From positions 1 through 57,434 of the forward strand of contig JARIEY010000003.1 of assembly GCA_031127085.1 (NCBI GenBank): DNA of 57,434 nucleotides, given 5' to 3'. The position numbers and the translations under genes were made by a program. Position 1 is the stretch's first letter. Each line of letters starts with the position of its first letter. A model generated the notes under the pieces. The model made no database searches and was not told the origin of the DNA. It saw nothing but the letters and a program-made list of their open reading frames with translations. Below are positions 8,526 to 16,612 of this stretch, piece by piece. The stretch comes from Gemmatimonadota bacterium (GTDB lineage Bacteria > Gemmatimonadota > Gemmatimonadetes > Gemmatimonadales > Gemmatimonadaceae).

Positions 8526-9002
8526 CTACTGGACCGTAACCGTGCCCTTCATGTTCATCGCCAGGTGCGGCGTGCAGTTGAACGGATAGGTGCCGGCCTT
8601 GATGTTGGCGAACGAGATCGTCACCGACTCGCCCGGGTTCATCATCATCTTGCTCGACAGCTCCATCATCTTCTCGGCGCCCATGTTCGCGTCGAGCTGC
8701 GGCTTCACGTCCGCCGGAATGTCGGCCGGGTTGAAGGCCACGTTGTGCGGGCCGCCCGACACGAAGGTGAACTTGATGCCGTCGCCGGCCTTGACCGTGA
8801 TATCCTTGGGCTCAAAGCGATAACCCTTCTCGTCGCCGAGCATCTTCACTTCGTGCGTCGTGCCCGTGATGGCCGCCGCCGTGCCAGCCACAGCCGGAGC
8901 CGCCGCCGGGGCCGCGCTGTCAGCCGCCGGAGCCTTCTCACCGCCGCCGCACGCGCCAAGCACAAAGGCACTCGCCACGAGCGCCGAACCGATGAACCGC
9001 AT
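8526..9002 (-). CDS. Plastocyanin/azurin-like copper lipoprotein
   Basis: A small periplasmic electron carrier or copper-binding protein. The lipobox LGAC (15-18) marks it as a lipoprotein, followed by an Ala/Pro-rich tether. The cupredoxin fold includes GGPHNVAF (first His ligand) and FNCTPHLAMNMKG near the C-terminus, which supplies Cys, His and Met, the full type-1 copper set. Between them is an insert rich in methionine and lysine. GGAGGA six bases upstream supports the ATG at 9002. It appears monocistronic, with a structured 5' leader and its own terminator. The redox partner is not evident nearby. Confidence 0.9.
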   Translation of the reverse strand: MRFIGSALVASAFVLGACGGGEKAPAADSAAPAAAPAVAGTAAAITGTTHEVKMLGDEKGYRFEPKDITVKAGDGIKFTFVSGGPHNVAFNPADIPADVKPQLDANMGAEKMMELSSKMMMNPGESVTISFANIKAGTYPFNCTPHLAMNMKGTVTVQ

Positions 9003-9033
9003 GTCGTTCCTCCGAGCCTTACTTGATGATTGG

Positions 9034-9090
9034 GAAAAAGCAGGGGGCTTCCCCTGAGCCTGAGAAATCTATTGGAGTCCCAGAGCCAAT
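9034..9090 (-). promoter_or_regulatory. Structured 5' leader of the cupredoxin gene
   Basis: Reading the minus strand, a weak ATTGG/CCAAT hairpin (9071-9090) is followed by a 6-bp CAGGGG/CCCCTG hairpin (9041-9056) and then CTTTTTCCC. This resembles a small intrinsic terminator about 40 bases ahead of the cupredoxin start. It may be an attenuator or simply an upstream terminator. The stem is short, so confidence is low. Confidence 0.35.
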
Positions 9091-9182
9091 TGAAGGGTCG
9101 CCTGTTGCAGTGAGCACTAAACGGCGTCTCTGCCGCAAGAGTTCCCGCACCCCCCGTCACCGATGGCGGCGCATCGGTCAAT

Positions 9183-9211
9183 TTGACTCCATCACCGCCA
9201 CCGACTACCCT
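9183..9211 (+). promoter_or_regulatory. Sigma-70-type promoter of the histidine operon
   Basis: TTGACT (9183-9188, five of six to consensus) is followed by a 17-bp spacer and TACCCT (9206-9211, matching the three most conserved -10 positions). The -10 box ends nine bases before the leader-peptide ATG at 9221, so transcription should begin at or just before that ATG. Confidence 0.65.
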
Positions 9212-9220
9212 TCGCGGTCT

Positions 9221-9295
9221 ATGACACTCCGCCGCCACCATCACGTGCATCGCCACGGTCCTACGGGCCGGGGGAGCACGCGCGCGTGCGGCTGA
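9221..9295 (+). CDS. hisL: Histidine operon leader peptide
   Basis: A 24-codon frame, ATG to TGA, beginning MTLRRHHHVHRHG. Residues 6-12 contain five histidines in seven codons. It lies between a good promoter and an intrinsic terminator ahead of hisG, as in classical attenuation, where ribosome stalling at His codons reports low His-tRNA. No Shine-Dalgarno is visible, and the promoter position implies a 5' leader of only a few bases or none. The gene is too short for normal annotation. I named it by position and composition; the sequence is not homologous beyond the His run to the enterobacterial peptide. Confidence 0.8.
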   Translation: MTLRRHHHVHRHGPTGRGSTRACG

Positions 9296-9338
9296 CACAC
9301 TGGATGGCGTAACCACGCCGCCCTGCAGCTGATCCCTC

Positions 9339-9373
9339 GAGCCCGTCGGAATACCGACGGGCTCTTTGTTTTT
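9339..9373 (+). terminator. Attenuator terminator before hisG
   Basis: A perfect 11-bp stem (9339-9349 with 9354-9364) and an AATA loop are followed by TTTGTTTTT. It lies 44 bases after the leader-peptide stop and 41 bases before hisG. Its 5' arm (9341-9349) can instead pair with 9260-9268 (eight pairs, one mismatch), just after the His codons. That gives the alternative antiterminator needed for attenuation. Confidence 0.85.
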
Positions 9374-9413
9374 CCAGCCTGCGCTCCACTCCGCTCCCGA
9401 ACCCCACTGCCCA

Positions 9414-10274
9414 ATGCTGCGCATCGCCATTCCCAACAAAGGCCGCCTCAACCTCGACGCCCGGTCACTGCTCGCCGATGCCGGACTCGAGATCCGCTCC
9501 TCGTCTGAGCGCGCGCTGGTCGCCTCGCTGGGAGGCGAGTTCGAGGCGATTTTCGTCCGCGCCCAGGACATCCCGGAGTTCGTGGCCGATGGCGCCGCGG
9601 ACGTGGGCATCACAGGCTGGGACCTGACCGTCGAATCCGGACGCGACCTGGAATCGCGGCTCGATCTGGCCTTCGGCCGGTGCCGCCTGGTGCTCGCGGT
9701 GCGGGATGAATCGCCGGTTCGGTCGGTCGCCGACATCCCGCGCGACGCACGCATCGCCTCGGTCTTTCCTCGACTGACGCGTGACTACCTCGCGCGCGCC
9801 GGCAAGACGGCAGAACTCGTCCCGGTCTCTGGCGCCGTGGAGATCGCCCCGCACCTCGGCATCGCCGATATCATCGTCGACCTCACGTCCACGGGCTCGA
9901 CGCTTCGCGTGAACGGATTGCGCGAGGTGGACACCGTACTCGAATCCACTGCACGTCTCATCGTGGCACGCGGCACCCGCGAGGACGCCCGCACCCAGAC
10001 GCTGGATGAGCTGACGGCGTCGTTGGCCTCGGTACTCGCCGCGCGCGAGCGCCGCTACGTCATGGCCAACGTCCCACGCGCGCGACTCGACGAGGTCAAA
10101 CGCATTCTGCCGGGAATCAGCGGCCCAACGGTCATCGACGTGATGAACGGCGGGTCAATGGTCGCCGTCCACGCGGTCGCGCCCGCGGCCAGCATCTACC
10201 GCACCATCAATCAACTCAAGGCCGTGGGCGGTGAAGGCATTCTGGTGACGCGCATCGAGAGGCTGATGGCATGA
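9414..10274 (+). CDS. hisG: ATP phosphoribosyltransferase, long form
   Basis: First and committed enzyme of histidine synthesis. It joins ATP and PRPP to give phosphoribosyl-ATP. The 286 residues start MLRIAIPNKGRL, the family N-terminus. The C-terminal part, from ERRYVMANVPRARL onward, is the ACT-like regulatory domain of the long form, so HisZ is not needed and feedback inhibition by histidine is expected. The ATG at 9414 is preferred over a TTG at 9366, which would lie in the terminator's T-run. It is the first structural gene after the attenuator. Its stop overlaps the hisD start (ATGA). Confidence 0.96.
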   Translation: MLRIAIPNKGRLNLDARSLLADAGLEIRSSSERALVASLGGEFEAIFVRAQDIPEFVADGAADVGITGWDLTVESGRDLESRLDLAFGRCRLVLAVRDESPVRSVADIPRDARIASVFPRLTRDYLARAGKTAELVPVSGAVEIAPHLGIADIIVDLTSTGSTLRVNGLREVDTVLESTARLIVARGTREDARTQTLDELTASLASVLAARERRYVMANVPRARLDEVKRILPGISGPTVIDVMNGGSMVAVHAVAPAASIYRTINQLKAVGGEGILVTRIERLMA

Positions 10275-11578
10275 CGGGATTCTCCATTGCCGTGCAAGGC
10301 GCCGTTGGCACGCTCGACGAACGGGCACGCCGTGTTCTGTTTGCGCGGACCAGCGCCAGCGACCCGGCCATTCGCGATCGCACCGCACGCATCATCGACA
10401 CCGTACGCGCCGATGGCGACGACGCACTGATCCGCTATGCGGCGGAGTTCGACGGCGTCGCCCTTGAGGCGCTTGAAGTCCCCCGCGCGGTATGGCGCAC
10501 CGCCCTCGACGCAACCGCACCGGAGTTGCAGCGTGTACTGGAACGGGCCGCCGCGAATATCCGCCAGGTGCACGAGGCGTTTCGTCCGTTGGCGCGCGAG
10601 GTCGTGACCGCTGACGGTGTCGTCATCGGACGGCGTCCTGATCCGCTGGGACGTGTTGGCGTCTACGCGCCTGGCGGACGCGCGGCGTACCCGAGCTCGC
10701 TCCTTATGGGCGTGATTCCTGCGCGGGTGGCCGGTGTCGACGAAGTCGTCGTCTGTTCTCCGCCCGGCCCCGATGGACTGCCAAGCGGCGTCCTGATGGC
10801 TGCCGCTGAGTTGGCAGGCGCCGACCGTCTCTTCGCCGTTGGCGGTGCAGGAGCCATCGCGGCGCTGGCGTACGGCACGGCCACGATTCCGCCCGTTGAC
10901 CGCATCGTTGGACCGGGCAACGCCTATGTGGCCGAGGCCAAGGCACAGGTCTCCAGCGTCACCGCCATTGATTCCCCCGCTGGGCCAAGCGAACTGCTCA
11001 TCATTGCCGACGGCTCGGCGTCGCCCGATGTGGTCACGCGCGAGCTTCTGGCGCAGGCCGAGCACGACCCGATGACCGCGGTGGTTCTTGTCTCCACGTC
11101 GTCCCCCTTGCTCGACGCCGTCGCACAGCGACTGGCCGAGTGGACACCGGGCGAGCCGCGCGCCGATGTGATCGCTGCCGCCTTTGCTGCACGCGGCGCG
11201 TTGCTGCTCGCCGATTCGCTGGACGAGGCCATCGCCTTCTCAAATCGCTGGGCGCCCGAGCACCTGCTGATCGCAACCGGCGCTCCAGACACGGTGCTTC
11301 CCCGGGTGCGGAACGCCGGCACGGTCTTCGTCGGCGAAACTGCGGCGGTTGCGTTTGGCGACTATATGAGCGGCGCCAACCACGTCCTCCCGACGGGCGG
11401 CTTGAGCCGAGCCTACTCCGGCCTCTCCACCATCGACTTCTACCGCTGGACCACGTGGCAACGCATCGGGCGCGTGGCGGCGGCAGCGCTGGCGAACGAC
11501 GTGGGCACCTTCGCCGACGCCGAAGGGTTGCCGGCGCACGCCGCCTCGGCACGCCAATGGCGCGCGGGAGCGCGTTGA
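10271..11578 (+). CDS. hisD: Histidinol dehydrogenase
   Basis: Zinc- and NAD-dependent enzyme for the last two steps, histidinol to histidine. The 435 residues include the signature VGPGNAYVAEAKAQV, the segment AGPSELLIIADGSA, the zinc-site region LLAQAEHDP and NHVLPTGGLSRAYSGLS near the C-terminus. The start overlaps the hisG stop by four bases, and the stop shares one base with the hisC ATG, so translational coupling is likely along the operon. Confidence 0.97.
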   Translation: MTGFSIAVQGAVGTLDERARRVLFARTSASDPAIRDRTARIIDTVRADGDDALIRYAAEFDGVALEALEVPRAVWRTALDATAPELQRVLERAAANIRQVHEAFRPLAREVVTADGVVIGRRPDPLGRVGVYAPGGRAAYPSSLLMGVIPARVAGVDEVVVCSPPGPDGLPSGVLMAAAELAGADRLFAVGGAGAIAALAYGTATIPPVDRIVGPGNAYVAEAKAQVSSVTAIDSPAGPSELLIIADGSASPDVVTRELLAQAEHDPMTAVVLVSTSSPLLDAVAQRLAEWTPGEPRADVIAAAFAARGALLLADSLDEAIAFSNRWAPEHLLIATGAPDTVLPRVRNAGTVFVGETAAVAFGDYMSGANHVLPTGGLSRAYSGLSTIDFYRWTTWQRIGRVAAAALANDVGTFADAEGLPAHAASARQWRAGAR

Positions 11579-12630
11579 TGCCACGTCCAATGCTGCGTCC
11601 GTCGTTGCGTGGCGCCCCCGTGTACGCGCCGGCCGCCACCGCGTGCGCTATCGACCTGCGCGACAACATCAACCTCTGGGGCGCACCACCGCACGCGATC
11701 GACGCGCTGCGTACCGTCGATTCGTCGGCGGTGTACGCCTACCCTGCGGTGGCTGCCGGCCAATTGACGGCCGCGTTGGCTCGCGTAACTGGCGTTCGCG
11801 AGGACGAGGTGGCGACCGGATGCGGCTCCGACGATCTCATCGATGCCGTCTTTCGCGCCGTGGCTGAGCCTGGCGAGGTGGTGGCGCATCCGGCTCCGTC
11901 GTTCTCGATGGTGCCCATTTTTGCACAGCTGAATGGCCTTGTTTCCACGCCCGTACCGCTCACGCGGGACGGGGCCGCCGACGCTGACGCCCTGCGCGCC
12001 ACTGGCGCTCGCATCATCTACGTCTGTTCGCCCAACAATCCCACGGGGACGGTCACGCCCACCGAAACGGTCCGACGTCTCCTTCGCGAGACCGATGCCG
12101 TGGTGGTACTCGATGGCGCCTATACGGAGTTCGCACCGGAACTTGATGACCTGCTGGCAGAGGCCCCCTCGCTTGAGCGGCTCCTGGTGCTCGGCACCTT
12201 TTCCAAGGCGTGGGGCCTGGCAGGGCTCCGCGTGGGGTATGCCGTGGGAAGCGCGACGCTGGTGCAGGCCGTGCGTGCCTCGGTTGGCCCGTACGCGGTG
12301 AATGCGCTGGCTGAGCGGGCCGCCGTCGCAGCGCTTGAGCAGGACGCAGACTGGATGCGCGCGTGCGCCGGTCAGGCCATTGAGTGCCGCGCGCGATTTA
12401 CCGACGCACTGCGCACCCTGGGGCTGTCGCCGCTGGACTCGCGTGGCAACTTCGCCTGCGTCCCCGTGTCAGATGCGCGCGCGCTTGCCGCGCGCCTCGC
12501 CGATCGCGGCATTGCCGTGCGGGCATTCACCGCGCTGCCGGTCTACGGTGATGTGGTGCGCATTGGGATGGCACCGTGGCCCGTGATGGAGCGCGTGCTG
12601 CACGCGCTGGGCGAGGTGCTGGCCACGTGA
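11578..12630 (+). CDS. hisC: Histidinol-phosphate aminotransferase
   Basis: PLP-dependent class I/II aminotransferase that converts imidazole acetol phosphate to histidinol phosphate. Lys210 in FSKAWGLAGLR is the PLP Schiff-base lysine. YVCSPNNPTGT is the conserved Asn-Pro-Thr-Gly segment. The 350-residue length is normal. The ATG at 11578 shares an A with the hisD stop (TGATG). A much longer in-frame extension upstream overlaps hisD and is not real. Confidence 0.96.
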   Translation: MPRPMLRPSLRGAPVYAPAATACAIDLRDNINLWGAPPHAIDALRTVDSSAVYAYPAVAAGQLTAALARVTGVREDEVATGCGSDDLIDAVFRAVAEPGEVVAHPAPSFSMVPIFAQLNGLVSTPVPLTRDGAADADALRATGARIIYVCSPNNPTGTVTPTETVRRLLRETDAVVVLDGAYTEFAPELDDLLAEAPSLERLLVLGTFSKAWGLAGLRVGYAVGSATLVQAVRASVGPYAVNALAERAAVAALEQDADWMRACAGQAIECRARFTDALRTLGLSPLDSRGNFACVPVSDARALAARLADRGIAVRAFTALPVYGDVVRIGMAPWPVMERVLHALGEVLAT

Positions 12631-13223
12631 TCACCGTGTTCGATTACGGCGCCGGCAATCTGCACTCGCTGGTAAAAGTGCTGACCGGTACCGGGCGGCG
12701 CGTGGCGCTCGAAACCGACCTGCGGCGCGCGGTGCACACCGAGTTGCTGGTGCTCCCCGGGGTGGGCGCATTCGCGCCGGCGGCGGCGCGTATGGCCGCT
12801 GGGCGCGCGACGGCACGCGATGCCCTCCGCGACGGATTGCCGTGCCTTGGCATCTGCCTCGGCCAACAGTTGCTCTTTGACGGAAGCGATGAGGGACCCG
12901 GCGAAGGCCTTGGCCTGCTCAGCGGGCGCGTCACGCGCCTTCAGGCCACCCGAGTGCCGCACATCGGCTGGAACTCCCTCGACGACGCCACTGACTCGCG
13001 CTTTGGCCCTGCGGCGCTGCACACCGCGTACTATGCGAACTCTTTCGTCTGCCGCCCCGCCGATCCGTCGGTCGTCGTAGCGTGGAGTACGCACGAGAGC
13101 GATCGTTTTGCAGCGGCCGTGCGCACCGCACGGACGTTGGGCGTACAGTTCCACCCGGAGAAGAGTTCGGCTCCGGGTGTCCAGTTCATTCGACAGTTTC
13201 TTGACGACGTGCTTCCGCGCTGA
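12627..13223 (+). CDS. hisH: Imidazole glycerol phosphate synthase, glutaminase subunit
   Basis: Class I glutamine amidotransferase that supplies ammonia to HisF. The triad is visible: Cys77 in GICLGQQ, and His176 and Glu178 in FHPEKS. VLPGVGAF supplies the oxyanion segment. 198 residues, standard. The GTG start overlaps the hisC stop as GTGA, and the N-terminus ITVFDYGAGNLHSL matches the family from that codon. hisF is three genes downstream. Confidence 0.96.
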   Translation: MITVFDYGAGNLHSLVKVLTGTGRRVALETDLRRAVHTELLVLPGVGAFAPAAARMAAGRATARDALRDGLPCLGICLGQQLLFDGSDEGPGEGLGLLSGRVTRLQATRVPHIGWNSLDDATDSRFGPAALHTAYYANSFVCRPADPSVVVAWSTHESDRFAAAVRTARTLGVQFHPEKSSAPGVQFIRQFLDDVLPR

Positions 13224-13230
13224 GACCTCT

Positions 13231-13944
13231 ATGCTCGCCATTCCTGCGATCGATCTTCGAGAAGGCCATGTCGTGCAACTGGTAGGCGGCGCCTACGACC
13301 GCGAGCAGGTGCGCCTGCACGATCCGGTGCGCATCGCCCGCCAGTGGGCGATGGCCGGGTTCTCGCGCCTCCATATCGTGGACCTCGATGCCGCCACAGG
13401 GCGGGGTTCCAATCGCGACCTGGTCACGCAAATCCTCTGGGAGGGCGCGGCTCCCTGTCAGGTGGGGGGCGGCGTGCGCACCGAAGAAGATGTGCGCACG
13501 CTGCTCGACGACGGCGCCGCCTGCGTCGTGCTTGGCACCCGGGCTCTTGAGGATCCCGACTGGCTGGAGCGGGTGGCGTTGGCCAATCCCGGCCGTTGCA
13601 TGCTGGCTGCCGACGTGCGCGAGCGGATGGTGACCACGCGCGGCTGGGCCAAGACCCTGGGGCGCGACGTCCTCTCGGTCGTGGAGGATGTCGCCGCACT
13701 TCCGCTCGCCGGCTTGCTCGTGACCGCGGTGCATCGCGAGGGACGAATGCAGGGCACCGACCTTCCGCTTATGGAAGACGTCGTGGATGCCTCGCCGTTC
13801 CCGGTCTTCGCGTCGGGCGGCATTGGATCGCTCGCCGACTTGCGCGCGCTCGAGGATCGCGGCGTCGCCGCCGCCGTCATCGGTATGGCCATCTACACGG
13901 GCGCCATTGACCCTCGCGTGCTTGCCGAGGAGTTCCCGCAATGA
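13231..13944 (+). CDS. hisA: ProFAR isomerase
   Basis: A (beta/alpha)8 barrel that isomerises phosphoribosylformimino-AICAR phosphate. The 237 residues begin [17 protein letters not shown] with catalytic Asp8; Asp128 in LAADVRE is the second acid. [12 protein letters not shown] is the phosphate-binding half-barrel signature shared with HisF. It starts 7 bp after hisH and its stop overlaps the hisB ATG (ATGA). Confidence 0.96.
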
Positions 13945-14477
13945 TCCGCGTCGACCGCACCACCAGCGAAACGACGATTCGCGTCGAGATGGCGATCGGC
14001 ACGGGACGCGCGGATATTCGCACCGGACTGCCGTTTCTCGACCATATGATGACGGTGCTCGCACGATACGCGGGACTGGACCTCACGGTGGTCGCAACGG
14101 GCGACCTGCGTCATCACCTGATCGAAGATGTGGGCCTCACGGTTGGCGAGGCCCTGCGCCGCGTGCTGCCTGCCACCTGCGCGCGATATGGCGAACGCAC
14201 GGTGCCGATGGACGAAGCACTGGTGCAGGCGGTGCTCGACGCCGGCGGACGCCCGTACTACCGGGGCCCGATTCCAAGCACGCTGTACGATCACTGGATG
14301 CGCTCCTTCTGCGACGCGGCCAAGGTGACGCTGCATGTGCGTGTGCTGCGCGGCCGCGACCGGCATCATATGGTGGAAGCGGCGTTCAAGGCGCTTGGCT
14401 TCGCTTTGCGACAGGCCCTCGTCGACACGGGCGCCGTCTTCAGCACGAAGGGCGCTGTGGCGCTGGAGGAAGGTTGA
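13941..14477 (+). CDS. hisB: Imidazoleglycerol-phosphate dehydratase (compact form)
   Basis: Manganese-dependent dehydratase forming imidazole acetol phosphate. At 178 residues it is somewhat shorter and more divergent than typical (about 195). The metal-binding elements remain: [18 protein letters not shown], a later VTLHVRV and [31 protein letters not shown] matches the family core. It has no fused histidinol-phosphatase domain; that activity is probably supplied by the hisN product two genes downstream. The stop shares a base with the hisF ATG. Confidence 0.92.
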
Positions 14478-15238
14478 TGCTGACCCGTCGTCTCATTGCC
14501 TGCCTTGACGTCCGCGCCGGGCGCGTGGTGAAGGGCGTGCAGTTCGTCGGTTTGCGTGACGTCGGTGATCCCGTGGAACTCGCAATGCGCTACGAGGCGG
14601 AGGGGGCCGATGAGATTGTCTATCTCGACATCTCTGCGAGCGCCGAGGAGCGTGCAACCCTGCTGGATTTGGCGCGCCGCACGGCCGAGCACCTGTTCAT
14701 TCCGCTGACCATTGGCGGCGGCATCCGCACGGTCGACGACGTGGCGGCCGCGTTGCGTGCCGGAGCGGACAAGGTGGGACTGAACTCCGCCGCCGTGCGC
14801 CGGCCCGAGGTGCTGAACGAGGGGGCAGACCGCTTCGGGGCGCAGTGCATCGTGGCCAGCATCGACGCCAAATGGGACGACGGCCGCTTTCGGGTCTACA
14901 CCCACGGCGGCCAGACACCGACCGAACTGGAAGCGGTGGCGTGGGCAGCCGAGTGCGCCCAGCGCGGCGCAGGAGAGATTCTGCTCACGAGCATCGACCG
15001 GGACGGCGCGCGCGACGGATATGACCTGGCGCTCACGCGCGCGGTAGCCGATGCCGTGCCCGTGCCGGTGATCGCCAGCGGCGGCGCGGGGTCGGCGGCA
15101 CACGTCTGCGCCGCGCTCACCACCGGCAAGGCGGACGCTGCGCTGGTCGCAGGCATTCTGCACGACAACGTGATGACGGTGGCCGCGCTTAAACAGGCCA
15201 TGCGCGCCGCCGGACTCGCGGTGCGGGAGGCCGCGTGA
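14477..15238 (+). CDS. hisF: Imidazole glycerol phosphate synthase, cyclase subunit
   Basis: Uses ammonia from HisH to close the imidazole ring, releasing IGP and AICAR, which returns to purine synthesis. 253 residues. The catalytic acids are Asp11 ([13 protein letters not shown]) and Asp130 (ASIDAKWD). [10 protein letters not shown] and [10 protein letters not shown] are the phosphate-binding loops. A strong GGAGGAAGG lies before the ATG. The stop overlaps the next gene's GTG. Confidence 0.97.
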
Positions 15239-16020
15239 AGATGACCCCCGCGTTGCTGATGGAAGCCGCGCTCGAGGTGGCACGGCTGACGTCATTAGTA
15301 GCACTTCGCTACTATAAACAGGACATCGCGGTCGAACTCAAGGGCGATGGATCGCCAGTGACCCTCGCCGACCGCGCCGCCGAACAGCTGGCACGCGAGT
15401 GGATCCACGCGCGCTTTCCCGCGGACGGCGTGCTGGGCGAGGAGTTCGGCGAGACGCCGGGGGCAAGCGGCCGGCGGTGGGTGCTGGACCCCATCGACGG
15501 CACCAAGAGTTTCGTGCGGGGCGTCCCGCTGTGGGGCACCTGTGTGGCGGTGTGCGAAGGGAATGAGGTGCTGGCCGGCGCCGCGGCCTACCCCGCCGTC
15601 GATGAGTTCATCACCGCCGCGCCGGGCGAAGGGGCGTGGCACAACGGGGCGCGCTGCCGCGTGAGCGACATCGACACGCTCGATGCCGCCACCGTGCTCG
15701 TGACCGATGCGCGCAACTTTCCTTCGCCAGTTCGTCGCGCCGGCTGGGAGGCGTTATCGGAACGCGCCGCCGTGAGCCGCGGCTGGGGAGACTGCTACGG
15801 TTACCTCCTCGTGGCCACGGGGCGGGCTGAGGTGATGGTGGACCCGATTCTCAACCCCTGGGACGCGCCGCCTTTCCTTCCAATTCTCGAGGAAGCAGGT
15901 GGCGTCTTCACGGGGTGGGATGGACGGCGCGATGCCTTTGCCGGCGATGCCATTGCCACCAACGGCGCGCTGGCCAAGGCCGCGCGCACACTGCTCTGGA
16001 GTGCTGATGTCTCTCGCTGA
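15235..16020 (+). CDS. hisN: Histidinol-phosphatase, inositol-monophosphatase family
   Basis: Magnesium-dependent phosphatase. GEEFGE, then [10 protein letters not shown] with Asp85 and Asp88, and [16 protein letters not shown] with Asp210 form the three-part metal site of the IMPase fold. Its place inside the his operon, together with a HisB lacking a phosphatase domain, points to histidinol phosphate as substrate, as for actinobacterial HisN. Start: GTG 15235 overlapping the hisF stop (GTGA), with an ATG two codons later as the alternative. Codons 21-23 are TTA-GTA-GCA, rare here, and form part of an AT-rich dyad. The stop overlaps hisIE by 14 bases. Confidence 0.9.
15296..15314. repeat. 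AT-rich dyad, copy 1 (perfect)
   Basis: TAGTAGC-ACTTC-GCTACTA, a perfect 7-bp inverted repeat with a 5-bp spacer inside hisN. It is the best of four copies of the same pattern in the window; the others are at 38417, 40468 and 53277. It shares the 9-mer TTAGTAGCA with two of them. Confidence 0.7.
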
Positions 16021-16612
16021 CCGGCTTGATTTTACGAAGTCTGGCGGACTGGTGACCGTCGTGGCGCAGGATGCGACGACGGGCGCCGTCCTGATGGTCG
16101 CGCACGCCGATCGCGAGGCGATCGAGCTAACGGAGTCCACGGGCGAGATGCATTATCGCTCGCGCACGCGCGGCTTGTGGCGCAAGGGAGCAACCAGCGG
16201 CCACGTGCAGCGGGTCGTCTCACTCGAGGCAGACTGTGACGCCGATGCCGTGCTCGCGCGCGTCACGCCGGCCGGCCCCGCCTGCCATCTGGGAACAGGT
16301 TCGTGCTTCGCCGACACGGCCCCAGCGGCCGATCTGCTGGCGGCCGTCGATGCCACCATCCGCGCGCGCGCGACGGCGATGGCGGACGGCGGTGAACGCA
16401 CCACCTATACGCAGCGATTGCTCGCGGACCGCAATCTGCGACTCAAGAAGATTGGCGAGGAGACGGCAGAACTGGTCACGGCGTGCGCGGACGGCGACGC
16501 CAGCCGCGCGACGGAAGAGGCCGCCGATGTCATCTATCACACACTGGTCGCCCTACGCGCGCTGGGCGTTGGGCTCGATGACGTACGCGCCGCGCTGGCC
16601 GCGCGACGCTAG
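16007..16612 (+). CDS. hisIE: Bifunctional phosphoribosyl-AMP cyclohydrolase / phosphoribosyl-ATP pyrophosphatase
   Basis: Catalyses steps two and three of the pathway. The N-terminal HisI domain shows SRTRGLWRKGATSGH, DCDADAVLARV and the zinc/cysteine part GPACHLGTGSCF. The C-terminal HisE domain begins near residue 125 and shows KKIGEETAELV and EEAADVIYHTLVALRALGV. Together they make 201 residues, normal for the fusion. ATG 16007 lies within the end of hisN. With this gene the operon encodes every step from PRPP to histidine. Its TAG stop shares the palindrome CTAG with the convergent peptidase gene's stop. Confidence 0.95.
   Translation: MSLADRLDFTKSGGLVTVVAQDATTGAVLMVAHADREAIELTESTGEMHYRSRTRGLWRKGATSGHVQRVVSLEADCDADAVLARVTPAGPACHLGTGSCFADTAPAADLLAAVDATIRARATAMADGGERTTYTQRLLADRNLRLKKIGEETAELVTACADGDASRATEEAADVIYHTLVALRALGVGLDDVRAALAARR

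Follow-up and report, generated by a model that had tools for sequence, protein, structure and literature searches.

The leader region of the his operon in this Gemmatimonadota bacterium is, with a probability of about 0.93, a ribosome-mediated transcription attenuator. In the window, i.e. the whole stretch of DNA analysed (57,434 nt), an open reading frame rich in histidine codons, whose translation is predicted, is followed by an intrinsic terminator ahead of hisG and contains an RNA strand that can form an antiterminator exclusive with this terminator. Covariation, arm swaps and a codon-by-codon scan indicated that this strand is left free by a ribosome on the histidine codons; a coarser test on the window was neutral. 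Re-reading of the window reproduced exactly the promoter, the 24-codon frame with five His in seven codons and the 11-bp terminator described in an earlier note on this DNA, and its alternative pairing of 9260-9268 with 9341-9349 (eight pairs and one mismatch) was present. The features, all on the plus strand, are as follows.

9183-9211, promoter TTGACT-N17-TACCCT (window reading and conservation across leaders)
9221-9295, leader peptide frame of 24 codons, MTLRRHHHVHRHGPTGRGSTRACG, and stop codon (list of open reading frames and direct reading)
9236-9256, regulatory codon run HHHVHRH, five His in seven codons (codons 6-12; direct reading and leader comparison)
9242-9248, 5' strand CACGTGC of helix P1, a weaker helix, over the His codons, with partner GCGCGTG at 9282-9288 (best complement in the window)
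9257-9269, small local hairpin P2, GGTCC-TAC-GGGCC, which can hide the antiterminator strand (predicted fold)
9260-9268, antiterminator strand, which mimics the 3' arm of the terminator (pairing and covariation)
9339-9373, intrinsic terminator of 11 bp with loop AATA and T-run (terminator scan, covariation and direct reading)
9341-9349, portion of the terminator 5' arm contested by the antiterminator (pairing with 9260-9268)
9414-10274, hisG, the first controlled gene (TIGR00070, E 4.3e-63)
10271-16612, the remaining operon, hisD-hisC-hisH-hisA-hisB-hisF-hisN-like-hisIE (NCBIfam matches)

The -35 element TTGACT (9183-9188) is separated by a 17-nt spacer from TACCCT (9206-9211), and the leader ATG at 9221 follows after another 9 nt. 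The terminator stem reads GAGCCCGTCGG-AATA-CCGACGGGCTC at 9339-9364 and continues with TTTGTTTTT. A terminator scan of 9000-9500 gave two sites on both strands together, compared with 0.4 expected, and the fold of 9200-9420 was more stable than that of shuffled sequences (z -2.63). The operon has the order hisGDCHABF, then a hisN-type phosphatase, then hisIE; hisC, hisA, hisB and hisN were named by their best NCBIfam match with scores below the curated cut-offs. A gene for a copper protein of the plastocyanin/azurin family (8526-9002, minus strand) diverges from the his leader, and a terminator-like site (9056-9041, minus strand) lies just before its start.

According to the proposed mechanism, transcription would start at or beside the leader ATG. 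When charged tRNA-His is scarce, a ribosome would stall within the His run (9236-9256) and leave the strand at 9260-9268 free to capture the emerging 5' arm of the terminator at 9341-9349, and polymerase would continue into hisG. When histidine is plentiful, the ribosome would pass the run and cover the strand, which local hairpins may hide afterwards; with the strand covered or hidden the terminator would fold. In this scheme a translated leader, termination and read-through within the cell, and a response to histidine are predictions.

In the comparison of hisG upstream regions that the earlier note had called for, the His run was conserved, and both competing stems were conserved with compensatory changes. 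Relatives of the HisG of the window (E<=1e-30) were present in 106 of 148 sampled genomes of the family and in 102 of 198 sampled genomes of the class. Related hisG records were mostly named Gemmatimonas or Gemmatimonadetes. A scan of genome contigs gave 219 contigs encoding HisG relatives; the best 80 of the 219 were kept, and these were mostly from Gemmatimonadota, with Myxococcaceae/Archangiaceae and 'Candidatus Eisenbacteria' also represented. From 209 hisG loci including the window, 7 with less than 250 nt upstream and 39 duplicates were dropped, which left 163 distinct regions. A His run (at least 4 His in 8 codons) was found in 155 of these, a terminator (ending within the last 160 nt upstream) in 145, and both in 143. 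One or both elements were missing by these rules in 20 regions, 8 of which had no His run. Four hisG loci of one genus, g66 (L199, L200, L202 and L203), had neither element, an apparent loss of the attenuator. In the genus of the window, 6 of 11 genomes, its own included in the count, had no HisG of the window type at E<=1e-30 (G062, G081, G104, G112, G124 and G130); four of these genomes are more than 90% complete, and loss, a divergent HisG or histidine auxotrophy may explain them.

The frequency of the His run by chance was estimated with 160 regions, as three of the 163 were too short or contained N. Runs of at least 5 His in 8 codons occurred in 142 of the 160 regions, in none of the 160 on the reverse strand and in 5 of 3,200 dinucleotide shuffles (0.16%). 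With the looser threshold of at least 4 His the corresponding values were 152 of 160, 12 of 160 and 2.4%. A strong terminator ahead of a gene can simply insulate it, in which case the His-rich frame would be accidental. We consider such an insulator very unlikely in view of these frequencies; moreover, the conserved promoter reads into hisG with nothing but the leader frame between them, and in the sister leaders described below the codon type tracks the pathway. As a negative control, the same kind of scan was applied upstream of 30 trpE and 30 ilvB-family loci sampled from the same bacterial family, and a codon run followed by a terminator was found at none of them. In this control the open frame served as an approximate gene start, upstream sequence was missing at two loci, and some of the ilvB-family loci were weak family matches. 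One trpE locus (L306) had a weak codon run 3' of a terminator-like stem.

The position of the promoter was also conserved. As leader start we took whichever ATG or GTG lay closest to the codon run, up to 45 nt away. TTGAC began 34-41 nt before this start in 114 of 142 leaders. The fuller motif TTGAC-N16-19-TANNNT immediately preceded the start in 99 of 142 distinct leaders (the spacer being 17 nt in 81 of the 99) and occurred in 0.014% of mononucleotide shuffles. A generic scan for sigma-70 promoters gave no match in the leader region of the window, so that the promoter call there rests on conservation. As the promoter abuts the leader start, the leader mRNA probably begins at or beside the start codon. 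In the window, transcription would accordingly begin within a few bases of the ATG and give a leaderless mRNA. A Shine-Dalgarno-like word preceded the leader in only 9 of 142 cases; by the same rule it preceded hisG in 30 of 142, so its rarity before the leader is weak support for a leaderless start.

The two competing stems were examined in an alignment of 66 of 99 non-redundant leaders. The 33 omitted leaders were mostly more divergent, and the percentages from this alignment therefore lean upwards. The terminator helix was paired in 94.8% of cells with 6 double-changed pairs, and its covariation score was matched by none of 500 shuffles. The antiterminator helix was paired in 89.8% of cells with 3 double-changed pairs, and its score was matched by 1 of 500 shuffles. 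When the antiterminator was slid by -2, double-changed cells rose from 6 to 12, yet only 30% of cells paired. Helix P1, in which the His codons pair with a stretch past the antiterminator strand, was paired in 75% of cells with 7 double-changed pairs, but sliding by -2 scored nearly as well. A per-sequence search for P1 gave a modest enrichment (24 and 28 of 143 leaders at p<=0.05 in two controls). Hairpin P2 was paired in 90% of cells of the 66 leaders, yet showed no significant covariation.

Thus the terminator had the strongest covariation relative to shuffles of the four helices counted (antiterminator, terminator, P1 and P2). This bears on the idea that attenuation works chiefly by controlling hisG translation or via Rho rather than through an intrinsic terminator. 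Some attenuators do sequester a ribosome binding site, according to the excerpted text of PMC9413887, and 18 of the 163 upstream regions had no terminator by the rule. The terminator in the other 145, its covariation and its position, at a median distance of 43 nt from its end to hisG, make control through translation or Rho very unlikely. The conserved His run and the two covarying competing stems support the proposal of the earlier note that this leader would follow the logic known from enteric bacteria.

Pairing of the antiterminator could be retained where sequences diverged. The strand matched divergent terminator arms, as in GACAGGTC with GGCCTGTC (L196) and GGCGGGCC with GGCCCGCC (L035), and the core co-varied with its partner across codon types (GACGGGYC with GGCCCGTC, CACGGGCC with GGCCCGTG, CCGGGAGCC with GGCTCCCGG, and GGGGACCG with CGGTCCCC). 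The energy of the duplex compared with mononucleotide shuffles was not a sharp criterion (46 of 143 leaders ranked within the top 2 of 50), because everything is G-rich, and arm swaps were used instead. Pairing with the leader's own arm exceeded that with swapped arms in 200 of 200 trials for 143 His leaders and in 500 of 500 for 23 aromatic or short-HisG leaders; the latter were 23 of 27 tried, four being without a terminator by the rule. The ACGGG core was read in leader frame 0 in 75 of 143 leaders, in frame 1 in 23 and in frame 2 in 3, with the exact word absent in 42. A core that is kept although it is read in three frames points to conservation of the RNA and not of the peptide. The leader peptide might otherwise act in trans, as peTrpL of S. 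meliloti does according to the excerpted text of PMC7298713, or stall ribosomes through its own sequence, and GPTGRG indeed recurs after the His run. Since it is the RNA of this stretch that is kept, a role of the peptide itself appears exceedingly improbable.

The dependence of the switch on ribosome position was modelled by blocking an assumed ribosome footprint (-12 to +14 from the P site) and recording how frequently the antiterminator captures the 5' arm of the terminator while the 3' arm is still to be transcribed. Over 141 leaders the mean was 0.75-0.79 when the P site was still 12-24 nt short of the run's end, fell to 0.03-0.10 at 6-18 nt past it, and climbed back to about 0.5 at +36/+42. 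For E. coli hisL (L211) the same model gave 0.71-0.80, then 0.07-0.08 at +6/+12 and 0.57-0.63 at +18/+24; its terminator was set by hand because the stem finder missed it, and pairing with anything upstream was counted. In the codon scan of the window, values lay at 0.78-0.88 while the P site was at 9221-9245, did not exceed 0.44 at 9248-9284, and were back at 0.85-0.87 at 9287-9290. The coarser test gave no difference in the window (0.82 with a stall at the first His, 0.81 without a ribosome, and 0.81 with the ribosome at the stop codon). Among 142 leaders in this test, the first-His stall was above the stop position by more than 0.1 in 78 and below it in 2. The mean without a ribosome was 0.42, far above the 0.07 of E. 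coli. The ribosome made almost no difference to how free the antiterminator strand is ahead of the arm's emergence (0.345 compared with 0.339). The complete terminator won at equilibrium in every ribosome state (means of 0.87-0.95), so the switch must be kinetic. In the simplest reading of the model, a stalled ribosome would leave the mimic strand exposed, so that it could bind the arm first; a moving one would cover the strand.

An Rfam search of 9000-9500 gave 8 matches up to E=10, none of them relevant, and RF00514 (His_leader), T-boxes and riboswitches were not among them. The sequence is unrelated to known leaders, as the earlier note had stated, in the sense that up to this threshold it matches none of the Rfam leader families. 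T-boxes are used by his operons elsewhere, as reported in the excerpted text of PMC9413887, so a His T-box or a leader bound by a protein or metabolite might take the place of a translated leader. Given the Rfam result, and as the conserved feature is the codon type of a reading frame, this seems extremely unlikely.

Sister leaders with other codons were found with the covariance model of the His leaders, R1. Thirteen matching stretches, comprising second matches and first matches in further genomes, were chosen for reading, and these were six His and seven Tyr leaders. Of the His leaders, L222 precedes a hisC-like gene, L224 and L225 have a different core and precede a short HisG, and the others are L229, L230 and L233. 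L222 (G209 contig 210, 21800-21942) adds a second His attenuator to a contig that carries the hisG one about 9.5 kb away; its downstream aminotransferase was named hisC-like from sequence. The window's own genome carries a Tyr leader (L220; G000 contig 13, 23366-23521, minus strand; MHSARAYSYYYVRC...) before a DAHP synthase gene (PF00793), which R1 detected with 35.8 bits (E 7.6e-5, a rough value from a short calibration). L221 and L228 likewise are Tyr leaders before DAHP synthase, and L223, L226, L227 and L231 are Tyr leaders before genes for biopterin-dependent aromatic amino acid hydroxylases (L223 by PF00351, the others by similarity). Further Tyr-rich leaders preceded biopterin-dependent phenylalanine hydroxylase genes at L264, L267 and L423. 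Tyr codons thus apparently control tyrosine supply at such loci; most of the 24 hydroxylase loci sampled by protein had no such leader, a Tyr run with a terminator occurring in 2 of the 24 (2 of 6 among loci with more than 55% identity). In the corresponding sample for DAHP synthase, the automatic scan gave a run with a terminator at 17 of 30 loci, at least two of them in the wrong frame, and no run at 9.

A second model, R2, was built from 21 aromatic leaders, chosen because their run and terminator were readable. In this set the antiterminator was paired in 95.1% of cells, with 8 double-changed cells compared with 1.5 expected, and was matched by none of 500 shuffles. At E<=0.001, R2 had matches in 112 of the 249 genomes sampled, of which some weak ones covered the terminator only, and it found the His leader of the window with 38.7 bits (E 1.3e-7, also rough owing to a short calibration). 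The His and aromatic models thus recovered each other's members. Of 40 picked R2 places, 35 preceded genes of aromatic amino acid synthesis, namely 16 for DAHP synthase, 9 for phenylalanine hydroxylase, 6 for prephenate dehydratase, 3 for prephenate dehydrogenase (one of which carries chorismate mutase too) and 1 for chorismate mutase (L407). The other five were L392 and L396, which were too short, L398, tested in one frame, L410, probably a false match, and L419 before an unrelated gene. As R2 was trained on aromatic leaders, the aromatic richness of its matches is in part a product of that training, unlike their division by target.

The codon type followed the product of the controlled gene. 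Automatic frame choice erred or missed terminators at some loci (5 of 7 in the prephenate dehydratase group), and those were read by eye; in ten aromatic leaders the terminators were folded, most of which the perfect-stem finder had missed. Six leaders with terminators before prephenate dehydratase (L388, L389, L390, L395, L397 and L413) were Phe-rich when read by eye, e.g. RFFSQAFFF, AFFAFTFFAF and AFTFAFFFFGF, and the three before prephenate dehydrogenase were Tyr-rich (GYYGYRYY, HYATFRYPY and TYAYAY). By automatic reading, Tyr exceeded Phe in 14 of 16 hydroxylase leaders (17 loci, one uncalled), and the two exceptions look like wrong frames. DAHP synthase leaders were mixed, with Tyr in excess in 24, Phe in 5 and a tie in 1 of the 30 read automatically (7 of 37 loci were missed). 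We tentatively suggest, at somewhat less than even odds, that one modular chassis has spread within genomes of Gemmatimonadota and has been re-aimed by codon change. His codons (CAY) would serve hisG and a hisC-like gene; Tyr codons (TAY), a single transition from CAY, would serve phenylalanine hydroxylase and prephenate dehydrogenase; Phe codons would serve prephenate dehydratase, and mixed aromatic codons DAHP synthase. Its parts would be the TTGAC promoter, a leaderless leader frame, the codon run, an ACGGGYC-type strand mimicking the 3' arm of the terminator, and the terminator.

R1 had matches at E<=0.01, weak ones included, in 148 of 298 genomes sampled from the phylum, and at E<=1e-5 in 69 of 193 genomes sampled, without group labels, from the phylum of a Myxococcus xanthus genome. 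A His run with a terminator was present in 19 of 22 hisG upstream regions labelled myxobacterial (one from a record named Comamonas) and in 3 of 3 from Eisenbacteria. In a HisG tree of 81 rows, midpoint-rooted and with low basal support, 21 of the 22 rows labelled myxobacterial formed one cluster beside the rest (support 82/85), with L127 elsewhere. The myxobacterial his leaders may reflect shared descent or transfer of the gene plus its leader. The hisG of Comamonas sp. KCTC 72670 (L097) grouped inside the myxobacteria and that of a Candidatus Kuenenia record (L110) inside Gemmatimonadota; both records are probably mislabelled or contaminated.

The leader resembles hisL of E. coli and Salmonella (RF00514) in having a leader frame with a His run, an antiterminator competing with a terminator before hisG, and a similar modelled response to ribosome position. 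It differs in its interrupted run, where hisL has seven consecutive His, in its apparent leaderless start, and in that RF00514 is unmatched by the window. The E. coli his attenuator also has more alternating helices than are apparent here.

Outside Proteobacteria, the excerpted texts of PMC9413887 and PMC2965389 describe his attenuators in Firmicutes, i.e. in the B. cereus group, Peptostreptococcaceae/Lutispora and Erysipelotrichales, and hisS/hisZ leaders in bacilli. These share His-rich leaders before his genes, in another phylum, the likeness being drawn from their description. Leaderless leader frames resembling the apparent start here are described for Streptomyces trpL, ilvL and leuL in excerpts of PMC8079986. 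In S. meliloti trpL the 5' end of the RNA starts with the leader ATG, as inferred here, according to excerpts of PMC7298713; it has Trp codons and belongs to Alphaproteobacteria. The excerpted text of PMC1262725 reports GC-rich, triple-complementary strands in actinobacterial trp attenuators and no attenuators ahead of actinobacterial operons for His, Phe or Tyr. In C. glutamicum, aroR encodes a Phe-Tyr-Phe leader before the DAHP synthase gene aroF (excerpts of PMC11802643 and PMC4046766), with Phe, not Tyr, as the signal for aroF transcription (excerpts of PMC11802643). Unlike these actinobacterial attenuators (Streptomyces; Corynebacterium trp and aroR-aroF), as far as the excerpts describe them, the leaders described here use one chassis with His, Tyr, Phe or mixed codons.

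Among the literature matches listed there were no his attenuators of Gemmatimonadota or myxobacteria, which Vitreschak 2004 and Lopatovskaya 2010 might mention, and no tyrosine-responsive attenuators, comparative studies in closed journals being outside this scope. Matches mentioning 'Tyr codons' were unrelated to tyrosine attenuation in their excerpted text. The mechanism is already known, and the lineage, the sequence and the codon-swapped family are without a match in the literature listed.

The results suggest that control of amino acid synthesis by ribosome-mediated attenuation is widespread in Gemmatimonadota and in some myxobacteria, groups for which the literature matches listed contained no account of it. 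The leaders form a natural series of a similar RNA switch with different codons, which makes the evolution of attenuator specificity testable. As the leader codons name the amino acid served by the downstream gene, they can sharpen annotation. If the modular chassis is real, it would include tyrosine-specific ribosome attenuators.
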